From the NCBI GenBank assembly GCA_016793635.1, contig JAEUMD010000009.1, positions 183,308-247,307 on the forward strand: DNA of 64,000 bases, read 5' to 3'. The notes under the pieces are model-generated. The model was not told the origin of the DNA. It searched no databases and saw only the letters and a list, made by a program, of their open reading frames with translations. Made by a program: the position numbers and the translations under genes. The stretch comes from Hyphomicrobiaceae bacterium (GTDB lineage Bacteria; Pseudomonadota; Alphaproteobacteria; Rhizobiales; Hyphomicrobiaceae). Positions within the stretch are counted from its first letter, which is position 1, and each line of letters opens with the position of its first letter. Positions 18,766 through 48,380 of the stretch are shown here, piece after piece.

Positions 18766-18934
18766 CTAGTGTTCCGTCTCCGACACTTGGTTCCCAGTGC
18801 AACTTGCAATCGACCAAGTGCCGGATACGAAAAGAACACTAGCAACTCGATGTTTCTAGTGTTGCGTTTGTCACTAACGCTTGGCAGACCACCGTTCCGA
18901 AACCGGGAACCAAGCGTTAGTGACGCAACACTAG
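18766..18934 (+). repeat. Two-hairpin dispersed element, copy 1 (MITE-like)
   Basis: This ~169 bp element is about 90% identical to the reverse complement of 48192-48359. Its ends are imperfect inverted repeats: CTAGTGTTCCGTC at one end and CTAGTGTTGCGTC at the other, both running on to CTTGGTTCC. Inside are two palindromic units. Unit I is about 18767-18842, with arms TAGTGTTC...CACTTGGT. Unit II is 18856-18934, with near-perfect arms CTAGTGTTGCG...ACGCTTGG. CTAG at the ends fits TA target duplication, as in IS630/mariner-type MITEs, but no transposase is nearby. The last bases (18931-18933) are the ugd stop codon. A short frame inside the repeat is not a gene. Confidence 0.85.
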
Positions 18935-47967: not shown

Positions 47968-48191
47968 GGGGCCTCACATCGAAAGCAGGCGCAATTCCGA
48001 CGCCAACGCTGCCAGCAATTGGTAAACGCTTGGTTGAAGTCGATCCGAGGACCGGACACCTGGAGCGCTATCCAATCCGACGGGACCGCAAGCGGCTCCC
48101 CTGAGCGGATAAAAGCGCTCTAGCACCAGGATTTGAGCATCTTTATCCGACCGCTCATCGCCACCGCGATTCAGCGCGGCCGCATGATGCT

Positions 48192-48359
48192 CTAGTGTTG
48201 CGTCACTAACGCTTGGTTCCCGGTTGCTGAACGGTGGTCTGCCAAGCGTTAGTGACGAAAGCAAAACTAGAATCATCGAGTTGCTAGTGTTCTTTTCGTC
48301 TACGACACTTGGTCGATCGCATACTGCACTGGAAACCAAGTGTCGGAGACGGAACACTA
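48192..48359 (-). repeat. Two-hairpin dispersed element, copy 2 (MITE-like)
   Basis: This ~168 bp element is the reverse complement of 18766-18934 at about 90% identity, with the same pair of hairpins and the same CTAGTGTT-type ends. On the plus strand it begins CTAGTGTTGCGTC and ends ACGGAACACTA. It sits in the intergenic space between two leftward genes of unknown function. No transposase is adjacent. The small frame inside it resembles one in copy 1 only because the DNA is repeated. Confidence 0.85.
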
Positions 48360-48380
48360 TCCGGCACTGCGTCGCTTCGG

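Follow-up and report, generated by a model that had tools for sequence, protein, structure and literature searches.

A CTAG-bounded double-hairpin repeat with the features of a MITE-like element in a Hyphomicrobiaceae genome and other Alphaproteobacteria

Two Copies of a Double-Hairpin Repeat

The window analyzed here is a stretch of 64,000 nucleotides from a contig of a Hyphomicrobiaceae bacterium (GCA_016793635.1, JAEUMD010000009.1), and it contains two copies of a repeat in which a short linker connects two hairpins. Copy 1 (18766–18934, plus strand, 169 bp) runs from CTAG to CTAG and sits between two genes, for asparagine synthase and UDP-glucose dehydrogenase, overlapping the stop codon of the latter. 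Its first hairpin (77 nt, 18766–18842) has its outer arm at 18766–18790 and a few extra nucleotides in its inner arm at about 18829–18832. The 13-nt linker (18843–18855) is IHF-like when read on the minus strand, and the second hairpin (79 nt, 18856–18934) has its outer arm at 18910–18934 and its extra inner-arm nucleotides at about 18866–18869. Copy 2 (48192–48360) lies on the minus strand, with hairpin 1 at 48284–48360, the 13-nt linker at 48271–48283 and hairpin 2 at 48192–48270.

The initial annotation recorded two copies in opposite orientation and about 90% identical, and this was confirmed: the copies agree at 154 of 169 ungapped positions (92% over 168 in BLAST). It located copy 2 correctly but ended it at 48359 instead of 48360, as the outermost base of this copy is A instead of C. 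The CTAG described for both ends is therefore present at both termini of copy 1 and at one terminus of copy 2, the other reading ATAG. Two palindromes per copy, also part of the earlier description, were found in both; when folded as single-stranded DNA, copy 1 reached −49.1 kcal/mol, compared with a mean of −20.4 for shuffled sequences (z = −8.9; 0 of 200 shuffles as stable).

CTAG is rare in the window, with 19 occurrences versus 78 expected from shuffles, and seven of the 19 fall within the two elements. The UDP-glucose dehydrogenase gene takes its TAG stop codon from the CTAG that bounds copy 1 at 18931–18934; an element inserted at a CTAG stop codon could thus spare the encoded protein. 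Next to copy 2, a second CTAG-bounded repeat (CTAGAGCATC type, 48120–48195) uses the same CTAG (48192–48195) as the element itself.

Copies in the Genome and Spread Among Relatives

The genome from which the window derives (G000) is represented by an assembly of 3.82 Mb in 26 contigs, 95% complete. It contains 15 complete copies and a half copy; apart from the pair in the window, there are 13 complete copies and the half. The 14 copies of 169 bp share 84.0–97.6% pairwise identity (mean 93.5%), and the best ungapped identity between the 100-bp flanks of any pair is 40%; on this ground, segmental duplication was ruled out. The fifteenth copy (C12:447404, 165 bp), which was left out of this comparison, shares its right flank with copy 2 as judged by eye, and both abut the second CTAG-bounded repeat. 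The initial annotation named many copies as support and only two copies genome-wide with homologous flanks as the refuting case; the genome shows many copies, with unrelated flanks among the 14 compared. Most copies end in CTAG, and a few in CTCG, ATAG or CGAG. A pattern for the outer end, allowing up to three mismatches, matched 31 times in the genome, always inside the 15 full copies or the half copy. The element is thus short and non-coding, with terminal inverted repeats and dispersed copies, as expected of a MITE.

Searches in other genomes, each including the window's own, gave counts that are lower bounds owing to stricter filters and the few candidates scored per genome. BLAST matched 11 of 60 genomes. 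A covariance model (R1) recovered the element in 52 of 103 genomes of the family and 18 of 385 genomes of the class, and a second model built with class members (R2) recovered it in 22 of the same 385. In a phylum sample, R2 matched 18 of 398 genomes, all of them in the Alphaproteobacteria. One abundant carrier was G461, where a 6-Mb genome gave 110 forward and 110 reverse end matches versus none for the control. Different families of the element differ in their core yet retain the same plan. Five element queries had no match in plasmids, and two exact patterns had no match in viral contigs.

A Fixed Geometry with Conserved Pairing

The plan can be written as CTAG, hairpin 1 (77 nt), 13-nt linker, hairpin 2 (79 nt) and CTAG, with the CTAGs counted within the hairpins. 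Every hairpin has one outer arm and one arm beside the linker, CTAG ends both arms, and the inner arm carries a few extra nucleotides. This geometry was assessed in 149 distinct hairpin pairs, collected under looser rules at 5–22 nt apart with duplicates removed, a set that includes some chimeric pairs at nested insertions. The linker measures 13 nt in 133 of the 149 pairs (9, 10, 12, 14 or 16 nt in the others), the element length is 163–174 bp in 145, and both inner arms have 3–4 extra nucleotides in 131; the bulge lies in the outer arm, as in a flipped hairpin, in eight. The outer tetranucleotide is CTAG at 251 of 298 ends, GTAG at three and TTAG at none of this set, and three other listed elements (L095, L097 and L241) start with TTAG. 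In a stricter set of hairpin gaps from −4 to 60 nt, whose underlying loci overlap so that the counts are not independent, the gap is 13 nt in 129 of 147, 12 nt in one and −4 nt in 17, the last being tandem elements that share one CTAG.

The arms continue to pair while their sequence changes. An alignment of 25 window-type elements has pairing in 97.0% of its 1250 cells; of the five measures of pairing, four exceeded all 500 shuffles, and 17 of 500 shuffles equaled or passed the fifth, further pair types. A second alignment, of 28 elements, takes in other families and other parts of the class. Here the paired share is 97.1% of 1343 cells, double changes occur in 35 of 48 pairs (240 double-change cells), and none of 500 shuffles reached any measure. 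Structures slid by one to three columns pair at only 29–37% in the 25-element set and 23–40% in the 28-element set, a comparison in which the true structure is favored because it was drawn from the same sequences. RNA under selection normally passes through wobble pairs. G-T wobbles occupy only nine of the 1343 cells in the 28-element set; this near-absence suggests that both arms are maintained in the DNA itself, where they would act as sites for protein or as single-stranded hairpins, or else that they are homogenized. DNA-level selection on both arms, or homogenization, may thus account for the pattern. Functional RNA as the main selected form is unlikely on account of the same wobble count and of an Rfam search, in which seven loci gave no match at the gathering threshold.

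The two ends of an element share only part of their sequence. In the 28-element set, the loop-proximal core (outer-arm positions 15–24) matches within elements at 0.757 versus 0.667 for shuffled pairing (0 of 2000 as high), and the distal stretch (positions 7–14) at 0.536 versus 0.548 (1420 of 2000 as high). The rows are related, so the core result mainly says that families differ in their core; it fits terminal repeats in which a shared core would serve for binding and the distal parts would be specific to each end.

Insertion at CTAG

Five comparisons of filled and empty sites, all in relatives, each revealed a gain of 164–165 bp at one CTAG. They were reduced from 44 filled/subject rows, some gapped by up to 10 nt, to five filled elements, and the empty form in all five is another copy of a repeat or element, not an orthologous locus in a sister strain. 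In L031 versus L187, from the same genome, the flank consists of another repeat; the repeat into which L031 is inserted looks related to the neighbor of copy 2 (CTAGAGCATC type). L119 was compared with L126 of the same MAG, and L132 with L262 of another genome, 79–83% alike. The remaining two, L042 and L043, were compared with L025 of the same genome and represent insertion within a different element, at its inner CTAG. In all five, the empty form carries a single CTAG and the filled form is bounded by CTAG on either side, except for CCAG at one end of L042. The empty sites sought since the initial annotation were hence found, in relatives and at repeated loci.

Beyond the CTAG there is no direct repeat: of 145 flanked elements, only 13 have the same 2 nt next to the CTAG on both sides, and three have the same 4 nt. 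Because the target is CTAG, duplication of TA and duplication of CTAG look alike. Insertion into TA was originally proposed; the site is stricter than TA, given the predominance of CTAG at the 298 ends and the absence of TTAG from that set. Taken with the many copies, insertion at CTAG bears out the earlier description of a mobile, non-autonomous repeat with terminal inverted repeats, and the mobility of the element is well supported.

The Linker as a Putative IHF Site

The consensus of IHF is WATCARNNNNTTR. With orientation picked by score in data and control alike, 76 distinct 13-nt linkers match it at a mean of 10.72 of 13 positions, versus 8.22 for shuffled linkers (the largest of 2000 shuffles was 8.67). 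The 12 linkers from outside the family, namely those in the class-wide alignment, reach 11.25 versus 8.47. Information content is high at linker positions 1, 2, 4, 5, 6 and 11–13, middling at 8 and low at 3, 7, 9 and 10. At position 6, where the consensus has A or G, 59 of 76 linkers carry T; at position 3, only 37 of 76 do. Of 122 elements, only 85 have their best or joint best IHF register in the linker. Judged from these sequences, the linker is IHF-like, and a step involving IHF is likely.

Search for the Transposase

The initial annotation looked to an IS630-type source. The IS630 profile PF13358 had no match in G000, G003, G006, G015, G027 or G034, and it matched five of 11 carrier genomes; with PF13358 lacking a match in the window's genome, this source was not supported. 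The Y1 profile PF01797 matched nine of 35 genomes, including the carriers G006 and G012, and had no match in the carriers G000, G001, G003, G014, G015 and G020, and a RAYT/Y1 source was not supported, given the lack of a match in G000. The same applies to an IS5-type source, as neither PF13340 nor PF01609 matched in G000. These negatives refer to an assembly that is 95% complete, in which gaps can hide genes. The likeness to REP/BIME elements noted earlier survives in the paired-hairpin layout and not in membership, in view of the GTAG count (3 of 298 ends) and the Y1 result in G000.

Other routes to a parent element were also followed. Inverted repeats at transposase loci, bounded by CTAG, TA or equal tetranucleotides, included none that resembled the element ends by eye. 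No recurrent transposase gene beside the elements was recognized among 60 ORF clusters, each judged by the first 60 residues of one member; the top clusters were translated elements and duplicate loci. Inverted end pairs 500–4000 bp apart, at L042 and L119, turned out to be neighboring elements, not a longer element. Among the matches listed for G461, 37 stretches had a seemingly unpaired end, and 10 ends were still unpaired at 155–180 bp; when 260 bp were viewed, those 10 were single, shortened or degenerate hairpins. A parent transposase with the same ends was not found in the stretches inspected in this non-exhaustive search, and an autonomous copy may exist. In G003, which belongs to the same genus as the window's genome, an IS5-type element with PF13340 and PF01609 lies between CTAG sites, one of which is the end of an element hairpin (L180:890–968 and L189:1384–1462). 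The ends of this IS5-type element differ from those of the repeat. Its position at an element hairpin parallels that of IS711 in Bru-RS1, as described in PMC3163539.

Explanations Weighed

We favor, at a probability of roughly 60%, a non-autonomous, MITE-like transposable element that is moved in trans, belongs to a family present in many Alphaproteobacteria and inserts at CTAG. Its ends would be the two outer hairpin arms, each consisting of CTAG, an end-specific stretch and a core common to both ends. A transposase supplied in trans would bind the cores, and IHF would bind the 13-nt linker, bending the short DNA to bring its ends together. Insertion at CTAG would leave CTAG on either side, as in the five comparisons in relatives. 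The 3–4 nt additions to the inner arms would shift the inner CTAGs out of register, and the two hairpins would therefore move as one unit instead of singly. The existence of flipped hairpins, in eight of 149 pairs, argues against this explanation, as do the failure to find a transposase with these ends, the linker positions that depart from the IHF consensus and the empty forms that are other copies of repeats or elements, and the preservation of the inner arms is not fully explained by it, as a double-strand transposase needs only the outer arms.

That whole hairpins are conserved, and not the ends alone, speaks for single-strand transposition (HUH/Y1, RAYT-like) or cassette-like recombination, in which hairpins of single-stranded DNA would be recognized, the bulge would mark the strand or arm, and CTAG would be cleaved and joined; as the cleavage and joining site, CTAG would then not be truly duplicated. 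Tandem units with one common CTAG, which account for the gaps of −4, and the REPIN-like layout of paired hairpins point the same way. We nonetheless consider this rather unlikely, because PF01797 found nothing in the six carriers named above (with matches in G006 and G012) and because the element is symmetric on both strands, which the ends of IS200/IS605 elements are not. A derivation from an IS5/IS427-type or IS630-type insertion sequence with a TA or CTAG target seems less likely again. The IS5-type element of G003 between CTAG sites would suit it, as would IS711, which duplicates TA at YTAR and was described within a Bru-RS1 element (PMC3163539); its weaknesses are the unlike ends of the G003 element, the silence of PF13358, PF13340 and PF01609 in G000, and outer ends that are CTAG far more than other YTAR forms. 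An improbable reading is that of a structural or regulatory repeat kept for the host, either a RIB/BIME-like IHF and nucleoid site or an mRNA 3′ hairpin, with incidental mobility. The IHF-like linker and the placement of copy 1 between genes and over a stop codon are compatible with such a role, whereas the patchy spread (at least 52 of 103 family genomes), the scarcity of wobble pairs and the lack of Rfam matches at the seven loci weigh against it.

Beyond the MITE-like reading, we tentatively entertain a wider proposal, in which a single CTAG-specific, IHF-helped recombination system would have moved double-hairpin cassettes through the Alphaproteobacteria. The geometry (hairpin, 13-nt linker, hairpin, 3–4 nt inner offset) would have stayed rigid while the cores diversified into families, with an enzyme so far linked to no repeat, and CIR, Bru-RS and similar palindromes would be its branches.

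Relation to Known Repeats

Judged by their description in a review, CIR repeats (Caulobacter CcrM-associated intergenic repeats; Chen and Shapiro, 2003) come nearest to the present element; each has two arms, built from long inverted repeats, with a linker between them (PMC2229807). According to the same review, they are about 110 bp long, with a conserved GANTC at a terminal loop, TA termini and an unknown mechanism of movement (PMC2229807). As described there, they share with the present element their alphaproteobacterial, intergenic nature, two stem-loop arms with a linker, and TA termini. They differ from it in length (163–174 bp here in 145 of 149 pairs). GANTC is present here in 80 of the 127 distinct elements, and its place varies. 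Shorter elements of 114–133 bp, matched in other genomes, could be CIRs.

RIB or BIME-1 elements of enterobacteria comprise inverted hairpins around an IHF site, with REP units, a GTAG tag and RAYT. They resemble the present element in that inverted hairpins flank an IHF site (predicted here) and differ in the tag and RAYT, as neither the tag nor Y1 was found in G000. The RIB paper is cited in PMC5082802. REPINs, as portrayed in PMC3733652, likewise are paired palindromes spread in a genome with RAYT; the element described here has no GTAG tag, no Y1 match in G000 and a linker of fixed length. Correia elements of Neisseria (CREE/NEMIS) are similar in being short, with terminal inverted repeats, TA ends and, in their 155-bp form, an IHF site (only predicted here) (PMC2229807). 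According to that review, repeats other than CIR form a stem that runs between their 5′ and 3′ termini, and the Correia element accordingly differs from the two arms with a linker found here (PMC2229807). Bru-RS1 and Bru-RS2 of Brucella (103–106 bp; PMC3163539, PMC10800456) are, by description, also short palindromic alphaproteobacterial repeats able to hold IS711. RIME of Rhizobium (Osteras 1995) is a rhizobial intergenic repeat known here by the name given in PMC2573895. No description of a CTAG-hairpin-linker-hairpin-CTAG plan was found in the open-licence literature searched.

If the plan represents one family, scattered alphaproteobacterial repeats would be unified under one architecture. 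It would also carry the prediction that folding by IHF brings the two ends of the element together and that a short offset silences the inner CTAGs. The covariance models, abundant carriers such as G461 and a clear hunt for the enzyme are resources for a long-standing problem, the movement of small palindromic repeats in bacteria.

Variant Arrangements

Several loci depart from the standard plan. At L044:763–930 and L132:4022–4191, one hairpin is flipped with its bulged arm outward, and the modules of such pairs may invert or recombine at CTAG. At L119:63–396, two head-to-tail copies of a different family share one common CTAG with a period of 165 bp. An absence of the bulge from lone hairpins was considered and not supported (3 of 65 lone versus 8 of 329 paired hairpins); in this count, the partner of many lone hairpins is present in degenerate form, and L277, among the three, seems to be unrelated. 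Bulge-free single hairpins whose arms are both of the outer type do occur, at L091:5597–5671, L333 from 1100, L339 from 190 and L022:1229–1301, and are possible minimal mobile units. Finally, several contigs of the Hyphomicrobium sp. FW.3.32 MAG end in or beside an element (L067, L074, L093, L094, L105, L111, L114 and L124), as expected where near-identical copies break the assembly.
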